From an uncultured SAR86 cluster bacterium (GTDB lineage: Bacteria > Pseudomonadota > Gammaproteobacteria > Magnimaribacterales > D2472): 47,747 nt of DNA. The notes beneath the pieces were generated by a model, which searched no databases, had not been told where the DNA came from, and saw only the letters and a program-made list of their open reading frames with translations. Positions 19,736 to 26,748 of this stretch are shown one piece after another. The DNA is taken from contig CACEDQ010000008.1 in the NCBI GenBank assembly GCA_902558375.1, forward strand, positions 1 to 47,747. Reading direction: 5' to 3'. Position numbers and translations under genes: made by a program. Every line of letters starts with the position of its first letter. Position 1 is the first letter of the stretch.

Positions 19736-19764
19736 TTTACTTTGTATTAGCATAGTAATACACT
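19736..19764 (+). promoter_or_regulatory. Candidate promoter of the yerC-his operon
   Basis: TTTACT (19736-19741) and TACACT (19759-19764) are spaced by 17 bases, and the palindrome at 19743-19762 occupies the spacer and -10. Transcription would start at about 19770-19772, at the yerC ATG, and there is no Shine-Dalgarno, so the message may be leaderless. Confidence 0.35.
19743..19762. promoter_or_regulatory. Operator-like palindrome before yerC-hisG
   Basis: TGTATTA (19743-19749) and TAATACA (19756-19762) are exact complements separated by 6 bases, a 20-base dyad ending 9 bases before the yerC ATG and overlapping the candidate promoter. TrpR-family proteins repress by binding such dyads across promoters. 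I infer it is the binding site of the YerC-type protein encoded next. Confidence 0.5.
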
Positions 19765-19771
19765 AGCACGC

Positions 19772-20038
19772 ATGAAAAACTTAAATGAAATATTTTTATT
19801 ACTAAAAAACAAAAATGAAGTAGATGATTTCTTAAAAGATCTTTGTACTCCAGCTGAATTAAAAGCATTAGAAGAGCGCTGGTCTGTTGCACAACTTTTA
19901 TATGAGGATAATTTATCTTACAGAGAGATTGCAGCTAAATTAAAAACAAGCACAACAACTGTAACTAGGGTAGCAAGATTTTTATCAAGCGAGCCGTACC
20001 AAGGATATAAAAGAATTCTTAAAAGGATAAATAAATGA
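19772..20038 (+). CDS. TrpR-related regulator, YerC/YecD family (probable his operon repressor)
   Basis: 88-residue helical DNA-binding protein. FLKDLCTPAELKALEERW (20-37) and the helix-turn-helix at about 48-71 (LSYREIAAKLKTSTTTVTRV) match the YerC/YecD branch of the TrpR family. The gene overlaps hisG by 4 bases (ATGA), so it is the first gene of the histidine operon. Members of this branch have been predicted to control histidine synthesis in Firmicutes (HisR); ligand and mechanism here are inference. The dyad at 19743-19762 is a likely autoregulatory operator. No Shine-Dalgarno is visible. Confidence 0.88.
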   Translation: MKNLNEIFLLLKNKNEVDDFLKDLCTPAELKALEERWSVAQLLYEDNLSYREIAAKLKTSTTTVTRVARFLSSEPYQGYKRILKRINK

Positions 20039-20898
20039 AAAATAGATTAACTATTGCTGTTCAAAAAAAGGGTCGTCTTTATGATCAAAGTATTGATTTG
20101 ATTAAAAAGTCCGGTATTAATTTTTCAACTAAAGGTGATAATTTATTATCAAAATCAAATAATTTACCTATTGATATTCTTTTTGTAAGAAGTGATGACA
20201 TCCCCTCTCTTGTTTCAAATGGAGATGCTGATTTAGCTATAGTTGGTGAAAATGTATTACTAGAAAAATCATTATTTAAAAGAACTTTTATTGATAAAGT
20301 CCTTAATCTGGGATTTTCAAGATGCAGGCTATCTTTTGCATGTCCAGAAAATATAAATATTAAATCATTTAAAGGTAAGAAAATTGCTACCTCATATCCA
20401 AATACAGTAAAAAAATACTTAAAAGATAAAAACATTAATGCCTCTGTTATTAATATTCATGGGTCTGTTGAACTTACACCATACATTGGAATGTCTGATC
20501 TAATATGTGATCTTGTTTCATCTGGAGCAACTTTAGAAGCCAATAATTTAAAAGAAATTGAAACTATCCTTGAATCCCAAGCTATTCTCATAAAAAATAA
20601 AAATCTAACAATAGCTAAAGAAAAAATTGCTAAAAAAGTTATTAGCAGAATGCAAGGCGTTGTTAATGCTATTGAGAGTAAATATGTAATGCTCAATGCT
20701 GATTCTTCAAAAATTAAAGAAATTTGTAAGATACTGCCAGGATCAGAATCTCCAACGGTTATACCTCTTGAAGATGAAAATAAGGTGGCTATACATGCTT
20801 TATGCCAAGAACCAATATTTTGGGAAACTATGGAAAAACTCAAAGCTAAAGGAGCTTCCTCTATCTTAGTTATGCCTGTTGAAAAAGTCTTAAATTAA
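20035..20898 (+). CDS. hisG: ATP phosphoribosyltransferase HisG, long form
   Basis: First step of histidine synthesis: joins ATP and PRPP. The 287 residues are the long, self-contained form with a C-terminal ACT-like regulatory domain (about 210-287) that gives feedback inhibition by histidine; no HisZ is needed. Catalytic-domain signatures are IAVQKKGRLYDQS near 7, GDADLAIVGENVL near 60, and the PRPP-binding DLICDLVSSGATLEAN near 155. The regulatory domain shows PGSESPTVIPL. It overlaps yerC by 4 bases and is followed after one base by hisD. Confidence 0.96.
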   Translation: MKNRLTIAVQKKGRLYDQSIDLIKKSGINFSTKGDNLLSKSNNLPIDILFVRSDDIPSLVSNGDADLAIVGENVLLEKSLFKRTFIDKVLNLGFSRCRLSFACPENINIKSFKGKKIATSYPNTVKKYLKDKNINASVINIHGSVELTPYIGMSDLICDLVSSGATLEANNLKEIETILESQAILIKNKNLTIAKEKIAKKVISRMQGVVNAIESKYVMLNADSSKIKEICKILPGSESPTVIPLEDENKVAIHALCQEPIFWETMEKLKAKGASSILVMPVEKVLN

Positions 20899-20899
20899 T

Positions 20900-22774
20900 A
20901 TGAAAGAATTATTATTAAATAAAAAATCTACGATCTTGGAATTTAATGAATCAAAAATTTCATCAAAAGATATTAGAACAATTAACGAATTTAAAAAGCT
21001 CGTTGTAAACGAAGGTGATAATGGTCTAAGAAAGATATCTAAAGTCTTAAAAGAAAAGGAAATCAAATCTTTTAAAGCTAGTAATTCTGAATTTAAAAAA
21101 GCTGAAAAATTAGTTAATGATCAATTAAAAAATGCCATTCTTACAGCATATTCAAATATTAAAAAGTATCACGAAAAACAACTAGATGGCTTGTCAATCA
21201 ATAAAGTAGAAACAACAAAAGGTGTCTCCTTATGGTCTGAGTTTAAGCCTATTGATACCGTAGGTTTATATATACCAGGTGGCACTGCCCCATTGTTTAG
21301 CTCACTCTTAATGCAAGCAATACCAGCGATTATTGCTGGTTGTCCAAATATTGTTATTTGCACCCCTCCAGATACCAATGGAAAAATAAACCCAACTATA
21401 TTGTGGGTTGCTGACATGCTAAATATTAAAAATGTATACAAAGTTGGAGGTTCTCAAGCTATTTTTGCAATGGCATATGGAACAGAGTCTATTCCAAAAT
21501 GTTTTAAGATATTTGGACCTGGTAATAAATATGTTACAGAAGCAAAATTACAGGTTAGCAAAGATATCTCAATCGATATGCCAGCTGGACCAAGTGAAGT
21601 TTATGTTGTTTCAGACGATATAGAAAAAGTTGACATCATTGCATCTGACTTACTTTCACAACTTGAACACAGTATCGACGCCAAGGCAGTATTAATTTCA
21701 AAAAATAAAAAGTTACTTAAAGATATAAAAACAACTATCACTAATCAAAAAGAATCTTTAAACAGAAAATCTATACTCAATGAGAGTATAAATAATACAT
21801 ATTTAGTTAAAGCCAAAAATGATAAAGAAATCATAAATTTTATTAATGATAATGCGCCAGAGCACTTAATATTAATTGATGATAATTTTGTAAAAATTGC
21901 GCCATACGTTAACAATGCAGGTTCTGTATTTTGTGGTAAATATTCACCTGAATCATTTGGAGATTATGCGTCTGGTTCAAATCATACACTTCCAACTGGA
22001 CAAGCTGCCAAAACATATTCTGGACTATCTGTTAAAGACTTTGGTAAAACTATTACCTTCCAAACTGCCACCCCTGAGGGGTTTCTTGCTCTTGCTCCAG
22101 TAGTCAAGACTCTTGCAGAAGCTGAAAGCTTAGATGCTCATTCAAATGCAGTACAAGTTAGAGAAATTTATGCTATCAATGATGTTGATACATTATCTAG
22201 AACTTCTTTTATAAAACGGACTACTAAGGAGACTAGTATATTTATAAATTTAAATATTGATGGTACCGGTAATTACAATGTGGATACCGGTCTTAAATTT
22301 TTTGATCATATGCTTGAACAATTCGCAAAACATGGTCAATTTGATATCACTATAAAATCTTTTGGTGATTTAGAAATTGATCAACATCACACCATAGAAG
22401 ATGTTGCTATAGCATTGGGTGAAGCATTTAAATCTGCTCTAGGAGATAGAAATAATATCGAAAGGTATTCATCCAGCGAATCACTGGTTATGGATGAAAC
22501 TATTTCAAATGTAAGCATTGATATGGCATCTAGGACGCTTCTGAAAATGAAAACATCTAAATTAAGAGAATATGTTGGTGATTTTCCAACTGAAATGTTT
22601 GAGCATTTTTTTATATCTTTTATAAATACCCTCAATTTTACCTGCCATATAGAAACTAAAGGAGAAAATAGCCATCACATTGTTGAAGCAACATTTAAAA
22701 GCTTTACAAGAGCATTAAATAAAGCTTTACAAAGAAATGATACAAATATTGCATCAACAAAAGGAAGTTTATGA
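20900..22774 (+). CDS. hisD-hisB: Fused histidinol dehydrogenase HisD - imidazoleglycerol-phosphate dehydratase HisB
   Basis: One 624-residue frame carries two enzymes. Residues 1 to about 426 are HisD (histidinol to histidine), with VGLYIPGGTAP near 121 and all four zinc ligands: Q254, H257, D355 and H414. Residues about 434 to 624 are a complete HisB dehydratase domain with FFDHMLEQ (467-474), DQHHTIED (494-501), EMFEHF (565-570), SHHIVEA (591-597) and the usual end STKGSL. The linker is only about 8 residues, so HisD ends at its normal place and the HisB domain starts at its own. The normal E. coli order is hisD-hisC-hisB, with a phosphatase half at the HisB N-terminus; both intervening pieces are absent. 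The final 4 bases overlap hisH. Confidence 0.93.
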   Translation: MKELLLNKKSTILEFNESKISSKDIRTINEFKKLVVNEGDNGLRKISKVLKEKEIKSFKASNSEFKKAEKLVNDQLKNAILTAYSNIKKYHEKQLDGLSINKVETTKGVSLWSEFKPIDTVGLYIPGGTAPLFSSLLMQAIPAIIAGCPNIVICTPPDTNGKINPTILWVADMLNIKNVYKVGGSQAIFAMAYGTESIPKCFKIFGPGNKYVTEAKLQVSKDISIDMPAGPSEVYVVSDDIEKVDIIASDLLSQLEHSIDAKAVLISKNKKLLKDIKTTITNQKESLNRKSILNESINNTYLVKAKNDKEIINFINDNAPEHLILIDDNFVKIAPYVNNAGSVFCGKYSPESFGDYASGSNHTLPTGQAAKTYSGLSVKDFGKTITFQTATPEGFLALAPVVKTLAEAESLDAHSNAVQVREIYAINDVDTLSRTSFIKRTTKETSIFINLNIDGTGNYNVDTGLKFFDHMLEQFAKHGQFDITIKSFGDLEIDQHHTIEDVAIALGEAFKSALGDRNNIERYSSSESLVMDETISNVSIDMASRTLLKMKTSKLREYVGDFPTEMFEHFFISFINTLNFTCHIETKGENSHHIVEATFKSFTRALNKALQRNDTNIASTKGSL

Positions 22775-23346
22775 AAATTGGAATTGTTGACTCAGGGGGA
22801 GCAAATCTTAATTCAATCTACTATTCCTTTAAAAGATTGAATATAGATTCATTTATTTCTAATTCCTTAGATGAACTCTCACAAATGGATGCATTGGTGT
22901 TACCTGGTGTCGGTTCCGCAGGAAAAGTAATGGAAACATTATCAAACAAAAATTTAGATAGCTTTATTAAGGAAACCAATAAACCAGTACTTGGAATTTG
23001 TATAGGAATGCAAATTTTATTCGATTATTCTGAAGAAGATAATACTGAGTGCTTAGGTTTAATTAAAGGAACTATAACTAAATTTAATAAAAAAGATGTT
23101 ATTGCTGTCCCTCAGATGGGCTGGAATAAAGTCGAATGTATGCTTGATAATACTTTAGATGGTTACTATTACTTCGCTAACAGTTATTTCAATAAAAATA
23201 GTGATTACACTGTTGGCTATTCCACATATGGAAATCAATTCTCATCAATTATAAAAAAAGATAATCTTTTAGGCTGTCAATTTCATCCAGAAAAATCTTC
23301 AGATGCAGGCGAAGTTTTTTTAAAAAATTTTATTAATTCAATATGA
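22771..23346 (+). CDS. hisH: Imidazole glycerol phosphate synthase, glutaminase subunit HisH
   Basis: Releases ammonia from glutamine for HisF. The 191 residues form a class I glutamine amidotransferase with the nucleophile C77 in VLGICIGMQ and the HPE triad end in QFHPEKSSDAG near the C-terminus. The oxyanion segment LPGVGSAGKVM is near 44-54. It overlaps hisD-hisB and hisA by 4 bases each. Confidence 0.96.
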   Translation: MKIGIVDSGGANLNSIYYSFKRLNIDSFISNSLDELSQMDALVLPGVGSAGKVMETLSNKNLDSFIKETNKPVLGICIGMQILFDYSEEDNTECLGLIKGTITKFNKKDVIAVPQMGWNKVECMLDNTLDGYYYFANSYFNKNSDYTVGYSTYGNQFSSIIKKDNLLGCQFHPEKSSDAGEVFLKNFINSI

Positions 23347-24062
23347 AAATAATTCCTGCTATTGATATCTTAGATGGTAAATGTGTTAGGTTGCTGAAAG
23401 GAAACTATTCCAAGGTGACTGAGTATAATAATGATCCTTTAACACAGGTAAATATCTTTAAAAAAGCAGGCTTTAAAATTATTCACATAGTTGATTTAAA
23501 TGCTGCTAAAACTGGTGGCAATGAAAACCTCAGAATTATAAAAGATATTGCAAATATTGAAGATATAGAAATCCAAGTTGGTGGTGGTATAAGAACAATT
23601 GATAAGGCAAAAGATCTTATATCAAACAAAGTTAAAAGAATTATTGTTGGTACGGCAGCGATTAAAGATATTAAATTTAGAAATGATCTAAAAGAAAATA
23701 TTGATGTGGACAATATTATATTTGGATTGGACTTTAACATTATTAACAATTCCCCTCTTCTATCAGTAGATGGTTGGACAAATAATACAAATATAAATTT
23801 ATTTGATTATATTGATGAAAACTCATGGATTAAAAATATATTAGCTACTGATATTTCTGTTGATGGAACGCTTCAAGGTCCAAATCTTAATATATATAAG
23901 AACCTATTAAATTATAAAAATATAAACTTAATAGCATCTGGTGGCATTGGATCTATTGAAGATATTTACAACTTAAAATCAATATTTTGTGATGAGTGTG
24001 TTGTAGGTAAGGCTATATATGAAAATAAAATATCGCTAAAGGATTTGTTAAATGCTAACTAA
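23343..24062 (+). CDS. hisA: ProFAR isomerase HisA
   Basis: Isomerises ProFAR to PRFAR. The 239-residue (beta-alpha)8 barrel has the catalytic D8 in [15 protein letters not shown], phosphate-binding [15 protein letters not shown], and the second half phosphate loop [12 protein letters not shown]. The second catalytic aspartate is in the [12 protein letters not shown] segment. It overlaps hisH by 4 and hisF by 11 bases. Confidence 0.96.
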
Positions 24063-24819
24063 AAGAATAATCCCATGTTTAGATGTTAAAAATGGATACG
24101 TAGTTAAAGGTGTGCAGTTTAAAAATCATGAAATTGTTGGGTCAATTTTAGATTTGGCAAGTAAATATAATAAAGATGGTGCTGATGAGTTAGTGTTTTA
24201 TGATATTGGTGCAAGTACTTATGATGGTGTTGTTTCTAAAGAATGGGTTAAACAAATTGCTGAACTTATTAATATTCCTTTTTGTGTTGCGGGTGGAATA
24301 AAGAATCTAAAAGACGCTAAAAATATTCTTAATAATGGTGCTGATAAAATTTCAATTAATTCTCCAGCTCTAGCAAATCCAAATTTAATTCAAGAGCTTG
24401 CAAATGAATTTGGAAGTCAATGTGTTGTAGTTGGTATAGATTCTAGATTTATAGATAATAAATATATTGTTTATTCAAACACTGGAGATGAAAAAACAAT
24501 AAAAAATACACAAATAGAAACAAAGGCATGGATAGATCAAATTCAAAATCTGGGTGCGGGAGAAATTGTTTTAAATTGTATGAATAAAGACGGTGTTAAG
24601 GATGGGTATGACATCACACAGTTAAATATTATGCTACAAAATTGTGACGTTCCATTGATAGCTTCTGGAGGCGCGGGAACTAAAGATCACTTTAAGGATG
24701 TGCTTACTAAGACTGAATCCAGTGGCGCTCTTGCTGCAAGTGTATTTCATAAAGATTTAATTAATATCAATGAACTTAAAGATTTTTTAAGAAACAAATC
24801 TATAAACATAAGGTACTAG
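24052..24819 (+). CDS. hisF: Imidazole glycerol phosphate synthase, cyclase subunit HisF
   Basis: Uses PRFAR and ammonia from HisH to make imidazole glycerol phosphate and AICAR. The 255-residue barrel has catalytic D11 in [16 protein letters not shown] and the second aspartate in [13 protein letters not shown] near 130. Phosphate-binding stretches are [11 protein letters not shown] and [12 protein letters not shown]. It overlaps the hisA end by 11 bases and is 2 bases from hisIE. Confidence 0.96.
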
Positions 24820-24821
24820 AA

Positions 24822-25424
24822 ATGGACATAGAAAATTTAAACTATGATGATAGAGGATTAATTCCAGCAATAATTCAAGATTCAATATCTTTTAATGTGT
24901 TAATGCTTGGATATATGAATAAAGATTCAATTCAACATACACTTAGAACTGAAGAAGTTACATTTTTTAGCAGGTCAAAACAAAGACTTTGGACTAAAGG
25001 AGAAACATCTGGTAATAAGTTATTACTAAAATCTATCGAATTTGATTGTGATAAAGATGCTTTACTAATTAAAGCAAAACAACTTGGGCCAACATGCCAT
25101 CTAGAAAACTATTCATGCTTTAAATCAGAGGAAAGAAATTCCTTTTCTATCATTGCTGAACTTGAAGCTGTCATTGATGACAGGAAAGATAAGTCTTCAG
25201 AAAATTCATATGTTGCATCGCTGCTAAATAAGGGTGTTAAGGAGATTGCTAAAAAAGTTACAGAAGAAGCAGGTGAAACATCAATAGCGGCAGTTACAAG
25301 TGACGGAAGATTGATAGATGAATCAGCAGATTTATTATTTCATCTACTGGTTCTTTTAAAAAACCAGAATTATTCTATGGAAGATGTCTTTATAGAATTA
25401 AAAAAAAGAACTTCTAATCAATAG
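24822..25424 (+). CDS. hisIE: Bifunctional HisIE (PRA-CH / PRA-PH)
   Basis: Carries out steps two and three of the pathway. The N-terminal HisI cyclohydrolase domain (about 1-105) shows VLMLGYMNKDSI, FFSRSKQRLWTKGETSGN, and metal-binding cysteines in FDCDKDALL and GPTCHLENYSCF. The C-terminal HisE pyrophosphohydrolase domain (about 112-200) has SYVASLLNKGVKEIAKKVTEEAGE. The 200-residue length is normal for the fused enzyme. It is the last gene of the operon; neither hisC nor a phosphatase follows. Its last 11 bases overlap the convergent GH16 gene. Confidence 0.96.
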   Translation: MDIENLNYDDRGLIPAIIQDSISFNVLMLGYMNKDSIQHTLRTEEVTFFSRSKQRLWTKGETSGNKLLLKSIEFDCDKDALLIKAKQLGPTCHLENYSCFKSEERNSFSIIAELEAVIDDRKDKSSENSYVASLLNKGVKEIAKKVTEEAGETSIAAVTSDGRLIDESADLLFHLLVLLKNQNYSMEDVFIELKKRTSNQ

Positions 25425-26748
25425 ACTTAATTTCAATATAATCTATAAGTAATCTACCCCTATCTTTGTCCTCAAAGTTTGAACATTCAGCATCTTGACA
25501 GTACCTTGATGTGTCGGGACTTCCGCCACCATTACCTCCAGATGCTACATTTAATATTAAATAAAAGTCTTCATTAAATGGCCAGTATTCATTATTAAAC
25601 TCACTTCTGTCATCTTTGTTTATTGTGAAATATGGTTCCGTTTGTGTATCTAAGAAATATTCAATTTTATCGGTTTGCCATCTCATTGTGACTGAATGGA
25701 ACTTATCGTAAAAATCAACATCTGCCGGAACGGCTTCAATTTTCCAAATATTTCTTGATGTTCCTGTTGTACCAAAATGGATTGTAGATTGAGTTTCATA
25801 TGCTTGATGGTTCTGCATATGTTCTACTAAGTCATTTTCTCCATCATTTGGCCATTTTTTTTGTCCTTCTACAAAACCTTGTGGAAGCATCCAAATTGCT
25901 GGCCAATGGCCCATTCCCTCTGGATGTTTGAAACATACTGTAACTTCGGAACCAGTTGAAATAACTTTTTTGCCTGAGGTCATAATTCTAGCTGAAGTAT
26001 AATCCCATGTATAAGCGCAATCTTTATCAGCACAATATGGATCCTCAAATGGACTGGTACTATTATAGATCGGCTGTATTTTTAAATACCCATTTTCAAT
26101 AAATGCATTTTCAGTTGTATTTGTTTCAGAATTACAATTTTTTGAATACCCTTCATTGCAACTTGTATAGTATTGCAATTCATTGTTACCCCAGCCTTGA
26201 ACATAATCAGAGTCCCCATTTGGGCAGCCAGGAGTTGCACAAAAACCATTTGATTCTTGATATGTAAAGATTGCATTATCTAATATATTATTAGAAAACT
26301 CTTCAATCCAATAACTTGAGCCAGTATTTTCTGGATCTTTACAATATGAGCTTTTATCTTCAGCATAAATATCATTTCCAGATCCGCTAGATTCAGTAAC
26401 TTGGACAGTTACAGATTTAGTAACTGTATTTTGTGCACTCTCACCTCTACAAGTAAGCGTATACGTATAGGTACCAACCTGATCTAGGGTAAGTGATTCT
26501 GATCCAGAACCAGTTGCTTTAGTACCATCCCAGTCACCACTACCATTACATTCAATAGCATTGGTAGTTGTCCATGATAATTCAACAGTATTACCCGCCG
26601 TTATAGATTCAGGAGAGGCTGAAAAAGTATTAATAACTGGATTAAAGACTGTAGGTGGTTGTGGTTCTGGCGAGCCACCACCTCCGCCTCCACCACAAGA
26701 CACAAGAATAATAGTTAACAATAGGTTAAAAACGATTTTATGATTCAT
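25414..26748 (-). CDS. GH16 family (laminarinase-like) lipoprotein with Ig-like domain
   Basis: Secreted beta-glucan hydrolase candidate of 444 residues. In order: a lipoprotein signal with lipobox LVSC (C18), a seven-glycine and proline linker (19-33), an Ig/PKD-like domain (about 36-118, NTFSASPESITAGNTVELSW), and a GH16 catalytic domain (about 140-440). The catalytic motif is ENDLVE, with nucleophile E304, D306 and acid/base E309 in GENDLVEHM; the usual second residue is Ile or Val, so Asn here is unusual. HWPAIWMLP (281-289) and the closing DYIEI are GH16 features. At least ten cysteines in the catalytic part suggest disulfides. Substrate may be laminarin, by family analogy. It lies 32 bases after the AGCS gene. 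Confidence 0.88.
   Translation of the reverse strand: MNHKIVFNLLLTIILVSCGGGGGGGSPEPQPPTVFNPVINTFSASPESITAGNTVELSWTTTNAIECNGSGDWDGTKATGSGSESLTLDQVGTYTYTLTCRGESAQNTVTKSVTVQVTESSGSGNDIYAEDKSSYCKDPENTGSSYWIEEFSNNILDNAIFTYQESNGFCATPGCPNGDSDYVQGWGNNELQYYTSCNEGYSKNCNSETNTTENAFIENGYLKIQPIYNSTSPFEDPYCADKDCAYTWDYTSARIMTSGKKVISTGSEVTVCFKHPEGMGHWPAIWMLPQGFVEGQKKWPNDGENDLVEHMQNHQAYETQSTIHFGTTGTSRNIWKIEAVPADVDFYDKFHSVTMRWQTDKIEYFLDTQTEPYFTINKDDRSEFNNEYWPFNEDFYLILNVASGGNGGGSPDTSRYCQDAECSNFEDKDRGRLLIDYIEIKSID

Follow-up and report, generated by a model that had tools for sequence, protein, structure and literature searches.

How can one polypeptide hold two enzymes of histidine biosynthesis that do not act at consecutive steps, when nothing for the steps between them is found in the operon? 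The question is raised by a gene in the window analysed here, i.e. the whole stretch of 47,747 nucleotides, which is all of contig C8 of a 1.0-Mb draft genome (31 contigs, 72% complete) of an uncultured SAR86 cluster bacterium. At 20900-22774 of the forward strand there is one open frame from ATG to stop, coding for 624 aa, in which histidinol dehydrogenase (HisD) is followed by imidazoleglycerol-phosphate dehydratase (IGPD); we call the gene hisDB. HisC is step 7 of ten in the available text of PMC8305728 and histidinol-phosphatase is step 8 in that of PMC5516325, so the dehydratase is step 6. A first-pass annotation of this DNA had placed the dehydratase and HisC one step too late (at 7 and 8); it was right that HisD performs steps 9-10 and that the two activities are not consecutive. 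For gene fusion and operon evolution the histidine pathway is a standard example.

The HisD part matches Pfam PF00815 (Histidinol_dh) on residues 26-421 with 477.8 bits (cut-off 27), near-completely at positions 13-410 of 411 in the profile, and NCBIfam TIGR00069 (hisD) with 464.4 bits (cut-off 243.8). The IGPD part matches the whole of PF00475 (positions 1-144 of 144) on residues 463-606 with 182.5 bits (cut-off 27), and NF002111 with 234.1 bits (cut-off 231). All ten positions compared with E. coli HisD (Y130, S237, Q259, H262, E326, H327, D360, H367, E414 and H419) are identical in the window protein. We take these to be catalytic, substrate- or metal-binding positions of the E. coli enzyme, and to include (in its numbering) the zinc ligands and the catalytic Glu-His pair. 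In the IGPD part H496, H497, E500, D501, H592, H593 and E596, presumably the metal-binding positions, are invariant in 17 of 17 aligned fused proteins; the alignment covers 17 of 21 fused loci, the near-identical L005-L008 being omitted. Both halves are under strong purifying selection, with dN/dS of 0.09-0.13 for HisD and 0.03-0.10 for IGPD in five pairs of fused relatives (NG86 method, dS above 1 in three of the pairs). We take both halves to be ordinary enzymes. The protein is not of the HisNB type, as the bifunctional model NF003937 matches it only from profile position 160, with 235.5 bits against 443. Nor is it of the HIS4/HisIED type, in which HisIE is joined to HisD, since hisIE is a separate gene here (24822-25424).

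The first-pass annotation proposed a single 624-residue frame of HisD and IGPD, against which it would have counted a stop near the junction, or relatives in which separate genes occupy that place. In what follows G numbers denote genomes and L numbers loci; f1 is the family of the window's genome, and f2, f3 and f4 are other families of the order. A profile built from 17 fused proteins was used to search 199 genomes of the order, and 121 matched, i.e. 52 in f1 and 69 in f2 and f3. The match is free of stops across the junction in 51 of the 52 f1 genomes (five of the 51 being partial elsewhere), and in the 52nd, G011, it starts within the linker, where the contig ends. Separate hisD and hisB genes at the same place were found in none of these 52. 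HisD and HisB are separate genes among the matches listed for f2 and f3, and neither hisD nor hisB was found in the eight genomes of f4. A draft as incomplete and divided as the window's genome could contain two genes joined by faulty assembly or by a frameshift, and in one of the 51 relatives, G114, the frames of hisG and, near its N-terminal end, of hisD are broken, with the junction intact. Yet a junction read through in 51 of 52 matching genomes, from separate public records, excludes assembly artefact or chance, and the linker differs in length by 2 and 4 residues among relatives, in frame every time. We give such an artefact next to no probability. Together with the Pfam and NCBIfam matches and the conserved positions, the read-through bears out the single frame.

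A scan of named genomes, in which the best 80 places were kept, gave 79 loci, and the genes are fused in 22 of them. Nineteen of the 22 are titled SAR86 cluster bacterium, one 'Gamma proteobacterium SCGC AAA168-P09' and two are 'Flavobacteriales' bins. Records with AG- and SCGC names are presumably single-cell genomes, and several of the fused-locus records are titled MAG. The two Flavobacteriales contigs (L072 and L080) carry the SAR86 fusion operon, with proteins 76% and 56% identical to that of the window, and are probably misbinned SAR86. No HisD-IGPD fusion is present in the other 57 loci, of which L131 and L140 hold just one of the two genes. Outside SAR86, no fusion besides that of the window's genome appears among the matches listed from 369 genomes of the class, and none in 249 genomes of the phylum (matches at E <= 1e-100); in both scans a first-look step limits the places scored. 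Phyla other than Pseudomonadota are covered via the named-genome scan (best 80 places). Matches spanning both domains in G342, G454 and G584 were rejected as fusions, there being two genes in each. The fusion is kept across many genera of one SAR86 family.

The HisD and HisB models are separated by about 12 residues (422-433). Relative to E. coli the HisD part is complete to the last conserved arginine, beyond which E. coli HisD extends a further 8 residues. Part of the gap is therefore the tail of HisD itself, and the added linker amounts to a few residues only. The IGPD part starts at the stretch that comes after the phosphatase half in E. coli HisB, and in this comparison no remnant of either the phosphatase or hisC was seen in the short linker. 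The 12 junction codons have dN/dS of 0.54-1.54 (five pairs, NG86, three with dS above 1). Set beside the low values of the two halves, this shows that both halves are kept and that the joint is free to drift. A linker evolving this fast might be a point at which the frame yields two proteins, by internal re-initiation or by cleavage. Against this, the window gene has no in-frame ATG, GTG, TTG or CTG at residues 415-450, and 16 of 21 fused genes have none in the stretch aligned with it; the remaining five have TTG or GTG there, and L017 alone adds a Shine-Dalgarno-like word. In the AlphaFold monomer model (mean pLDDT 84.7, pTM 0.79) the last HisD helix (412-431) is predicted to run on into the junction, and the first IGPD strand to begin at 435. 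We consider two separate products very unlikely.

The operon has the order hisR(19772)-hisG-hisDB-hisH-hisA-hisF-hisIE (Table 1), and the hisH ATG shares four bases (ATGA) with the end of hisDB. PF00977 matches both HisA and HisF and cannot separate them, so these genes are named by their position. No hisC or phosphatase domain was found by Pfam or NCBIfam in any of the seven genes.

Table 1. Features of the his operon in the window (positions in the 47,747-nucleotide stretch).
Feature	Position	Strand	Basis
Candidate HisR operator, 20-bp palindrome TGTA-N12-TACA	19743..19762		9 bp upstream of hisR; recurs in fused loci
hisR-like TrpR-family repressor gene, 88 aa	19772..20038	+	Pfam Trp_repressor 78.5 bits; TIGR02531 YerC/YecD 54.5 bits (cut-off 42.2)
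hisG, long type, 287 aa, HisG_C domain present	20035..20898	+	Pfam; frame lengths in relatives
hisDB fusion gene, 624 aa	20900..22774	+	ORF; Pfam and NCBIfam matches; read-through in relatives
HisD (histidinol dehydrogenase) part, residues 1-421	20900..22162	+	Pfam; E. coli alignment
Junction, residues 422-433: HisD tail and short linker	22163..22198	+	Alignment; dN/dS; model
IGPD (imidazoleglycerol-phosphate dehydratase) part, residues 434-624	22199..22771	+	Pfam; NCBIfam; E. coli alignment
hisH	22771..23346	+	Glutamine amidotransferase domain; name from operon position
hisA	23343..24062	+	PF00977 220.6 bits; name from operon position
hisF	24052..24819	+	PF00977 230.1 bits; name from operon position
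hisIE bifunctional gene	24822..25424	+	PRA-CH 110 bits; PRA-PH 60.1 bits

By its profile matches the 88-aa gene product belongs to the YerC/HisR group of TrpR-family proteins; HisR is the product of yerC in the available text of PMC9413887. The candidate operator upstream of the gene, TGTATTAGCATAGTAATACA, has two mismatches relative to the consensus of the proteobacterial HisR motif as printed in the same text. Of 21 fused loci, 14 have TGTA-N12-TACA at the corresponding position; six lack it, and L004 is too short to hold one. A single such site means little, because there are three in the whole window. At the other end of the operon a protein of 444 aa with a lipoprotein-like start is encoded on the opposite strand (25414-26748), the 3' end of its gene overlapping that of hisIE by 11 bases. 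It has no Pfam match at E <= 1e-10, and G021, G022 and G028 have related proteins in the same position.

Where did the fused gene come from? The operon differs from that of the sister families. The HisG frame is 287-321 aa long in f1 (that of G013 is truncated by the end of its contig) and 208-239 aa in f2 and f3, and in the sister-family genomes G038 and G040 hisG and hisD follow a MurA-like gene (PF00275), with hisB and its neighbours at a distant place. Trees, all of a quick kind without bootstrap, were made from 83 chosen rows for HisD (86 with L090, L094 and L128) and 81 chosen rows for IGPD. The 15 fused HisD rows form one clade (value 100) within a group (value 99) of E. coli, other gammaproteobacteria and Bacteroidota; HisD of f2 and f3 groups with other gammaproteobacteria, apart from the fused HisD. 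The groups compared by AU tests were named after the gene orders were known. A single clade of fused and f2/f3 HisD is rejected (p-AU 0.004), as is one of fused and f2/f3 IGPD (p 0.0007). A clade of fused HisD with 25 rows of its group (gammaproteobacteria and one Oligoflexus), a set named after the tree had been seen and with downstream gene order checked for part of it, is not rejected (p 0.81) and is likelier by 17.6 log units. One clade of fused IGPD with 48 NB halves (i.e. those of hisNB) is likewise not rejected (p 0.54), being 2.2 log units better than the free search; three NB rows (L090, L094 and L137) lie outside the main NB group in the quick IGPD tree. The fused IGPD is thus compatible with the NB halves as one clade, a grouping not rejected and not proven.

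Gene order points in the same direction. Upstream of hisG there is a hisR in 11 of 22 loci checked, ten of them gammaproteobacterial and the other L094. In nine (L181, L182, L205-L209, L115 and L135) hisD is followed by a hisC-sized gap and then NB; L178, which also has hisR, ends within the gene downstream of hisD. The check upstream of hisG gave no hisR for E. coli, L132, L179, L180, four Bacteroidota loci, two f2/f3 loci and L176, and of these L179, L180, E. coli and L132 have operons of G-D-C-NB type. The best-scoring complete HisD sequences beyond SAR86-like contigs and Lachnospiraceae loci are mostly from Bacteroidota (best 80 places). Bacteroidota may have been the donor, but in the four loci checked no hisR was found before hisG, and the clade with gammaproteobacterial HisD is not rejected. 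To judge from trees and gene order, the ancestor of the family most likely acquired a hisR-G-D-C-NB-H-A-F-IE operon in replacement of a dispersed set, and this operon was the parent. Both lines of evidence support an origin of the fusion in which a G-D-C-NB-H-A-F-IE operon lost hisC together with the phosphatase half of hisB. The first-pass annotation had suggested an in-frame deletion of just this extent; the loss would stand, and one deletion is indistinguishable from two steps. The latter is possible because in L090 and L094 hisC alone is gone and an unfused D adjoins NB.

Unfused hisD and hisB genes also adjoin each other in other lineages. At L210:1453-3363 (G584, of another class in the same phylum) the two abut in one frame with a stop codon between them, apparently a state one step short of fusion. 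L176 and L177 (in G342 and G454) have the order hisG(short)-hisD-hisB-hisH-hisA, in which D and B are not separated by hisC; by its gene order this is an independent case of D adjoining B. Loss of a stop codon between hisD and an adjoining monofunctional hisB could therefore have made the fusion, without any G-D-C-NB operon. Such pairs occur in G584 (where the hisB ATG follows the hisD stop without a gap), G342 and G454, in Agathobacter/Roseburia (L086-L088) and in L139, and it is not proven that the fused IGPD groups with NB. However, HisD of G342, Agathobacter/Roseburia and L139 falls outside the group that holds the fused HisD (that of G584 is not in the tree), and fused HisD, long HisG and HisR all match gammaproteobacterial operons of G-D-C-NB type. 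We regard stop-codon loss as an improbable origin, to be kept in mind.

By either route the operon is left without genes for steps 7 and 8. The first-pass annotation held that these must be performed by enzymes encoded elsewhere, or that the cell depends on others. Judged by profile matches, candidates for both are present in the window's genome and look able to perform the missing steps, and dependence on others is not needed. One hisC gene, at L048:4903-5994 on contig C4, is over cut-off (337.7 against 276.55 bits), located between pheA and tyrA. It is probably resident, since the order pheA-hisC-tyrA recurs in six of six f2 loci checked (one being cut before tyrA). For step 8 there is a HAD-IB, SerB-like histidinol-phosphatase homologue on contig C2 of this genome (G000), at L215:1495-2157, that is over the subfamily cut-off of TIGR01490 (139.9 against 98.3 bits) and scores 254.3 bits with NF052360, below the equivalog cut-off of 280; none of 61 genomes has a match over that cut-off. 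SerB-like histidinol-phosphatases have been assigned by mutant fitness in Pseudomonas, Marinobacter and Burkholderia, according to the available text of PMC5764234, and in our reading NF052360 models these proteins.

NF052360 matches are present in 36 of 38 genomes with a hisDB-type match against 12 of 23 without, and hisC over cut-off in 31 of 38 against 7 of 23. Neither gene tracks the operon strictly, since 12 and 7 of the 23 genomes without hisDB keep them. The two hisDB-type genomes lacking an NF052360 match are G023 (a one-contig genome that carries the fusion) and G058. In G148, from another genus of f1, the locus L223 has the order hisR-G-DB-H-A-F-IE-hisC, and the phosphatase homologue is adjacent to hisR in divergent orientation; in G019 hisC lies in two broken frames, convergent directly after hisIE. 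This linkage, together with the joint absence of both genes in G021 and G028, is the best evidence that hisC and the phosphatase belong to this pathway. We note that L223 is a one-cluster histidine pathway in a streamlined genome.

Other phosphatases were considered. The window's genome has three proteins of the inositol-phosphatase family, to which HisN belongs, and none of them passes TIGR02067 (88-103 bits against 275). The best match of the first is to SuhB, the second is CysQ (over cut-off), and the third, at G000:C3:4229-4900 (L049:1203-1955), is without assigned role; several genomes without the operon also have three. We prefer the HAD-IB homologue to these proteins as the candidate for step 8, the protein without assigned role being a less likely one. 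HisB-N (HAD DDDD) is over cut-off in none of 61 genomes, with weak matches in 20, and the window's genome has no HisB-N/TIGR01261 match.

The whole his operon is cleanly absent from two genomes of the same family, G021 and G028 (loci L220 and L222), with trmA, nfuA and alsT kept, suggesting histidine auxotrophy in both. The alsT-nfuA stretch of G022 is also without the operon. G021, G028 and G035, in which neither hisDB nor hisG was found, likewise have no hisC over cut-off and no phosphatase match. No hisDB match was found in four genomes of the window's genus (G002, G003, G004 and G009). Auxotrophy of these relatives was rejected as a conclusion: G002 and G003, the two checked, are also without the neighbouring alsT, and a gap in the assembly is therefore no less likely than loss. 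Clean loss of the operon is demonstrated in G021 and G028 only.

It might be asked whether hisDB is itself a relic of a broken pathway in an auxotroph. The operon lacks hisC and the HisB phosphatase half, nothing in the genome matches HisB-N, and G021 and G028 of the same family have lost the operon altogether. Yet the low dN/dS of both halves counts against this, as does the fact that the genome also has hisC and a phosphatase homologue, and where the operon is gone in G021, G028 and G035 these two have gone with it, other operon-less genomes keeping one or both. A relic seems to us extremely unlikely. For streamlined marine genomes, the lack of hisC or of a phosphatase in the his operon does not on its own point to auxotrophy.

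We think it probable that hisDB encodes a bifunctional enzyme of a working pathway, which arose by loss of hisC and the phosphatase half from a compact operon, with the missing steps performed by separate proteins. The ancestor of the family would have held the compact hisR-G-D-C-NB-H-A-F-IE operon. A resident hisC and phosphatase would have made the operon hisC and the phosphatase half of hisB redundant, so that both were lost, and this loss would have joined hisD in frame to the dehydratase half. In the present protein the IGPD half would make imidazole-acetol phosphate (step 6) and the HisD half would oxidise histidinol to histidine (steps 9-10), with HisC (step 7) and the HAD-IB SerB-like histidinol-phosphatase (step 8) as separate proteins encoded elsewhere in the genome. 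The tether may fix the ratio of the two enzymes and co-assemble HisD dimers with the IGPD oligomer. We infer all of these activities, the redundancy argument and the role of the tether in ratio and co-assembly. Direct channelling is unlikely, because steps 6 and 9-10 are not consecutive. Equal amounts and co-assembly are simpler gains, and there need be no gain if the fusion merely fixed a deletion.

HisD is a homodimer in the available text of PMC7284861, and the IGPD entries 7oj5 and 6ezm of the PDB have 24 chains each, so a large particle is possible. One doubtful but conceivable form is a megadalton particle with a 24-mer octahedral IGPD core and a HisD dimer at each 2-fold axis (24 x about 70 kDa), free HisC and phosphatase acting between anchored enzymes that bracket steps 7 and 8. 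If true, the fusion would act as scaffold for the final part of the pathway and not as a channel between consecutive steps. The 50 structural matches listed are all HisD-type or IGPD structures, none spanning both. The HisDB model has an 18 Å rmsd to most HisD crystals, which we tentatively put down to the swapped tail; domain swapping in HisD is stated in a PDB title.

Five his fusions (hisA/hisF, hisIE, hisHF, hisNB and hisIED) were listed in 2007 by Fani and others (PMC1963479), and in the available text no joining of HisD to IGPD is among them. Nor is one named in the accessible parts of the later PMC7284861, PMC10138114, PMC8305728 and PMC11237513. The statement of the first-pass annotation that it knew of no characterised HisD-HisB fusion agrees with this, and none was found in the literature searched, chiefly outside subscription papers and bioRxiv preprints and in part-text sources. 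The kind of event is well known; the combination HisD-IGPD is new. A single lineage here offers unfused relatives, the kind of operon that was probably ancestral, and candidate genes, resident or relocated, for the steps that were lost, so that channelling, a fixed ratio and mere deletion of redundant genes can be tested against each other.

The closest comparison is with HisNB of E. coli and Bacteroidota, where IGPD also carries an N-terminal histidine enzyme in a compact operon and non-consecutive steps are joined. The partner in HisNB is a HAD phosphatase, whereas in HisDB it is HisD, and the phosphatase half is absent. HisD is part of a multifunctional histidine protein in fungal HIS4/HisIED (PMC1963479, in the text available) and in the seven-activity protein of Acanthamoeba (PMC6029752, likewise). 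These proteins are eukaryotic and have HisD joined to HisIE and others, unlike HisDB. The HisR-controlled his operons of Legionella, Francisella and Xanthomonadales, in the portions of PMC9413887 at hand, resemble the hisDB operon in having a TrpR-family hisR first, and the gammaproteobacterial hisR operons checked here share with it the long HisG and a HisD of the same group. The nine in which NB comes after hisD and a gap the size of hisC include no fusion, in contrast to hisDB. In G263, of another gammaproteobacterial family, L180:3750-6116 encodes a protein of 788 aa with PF00815 at 21-428 and PF00155 (class I/II aminotransferase) at 471-780, followed by hisNB. As in HisDB, HisD is here joined to its downstream neighbour within the same type of operon, but the partner is HisC, in one genome, where that of HisDB is IGPD.
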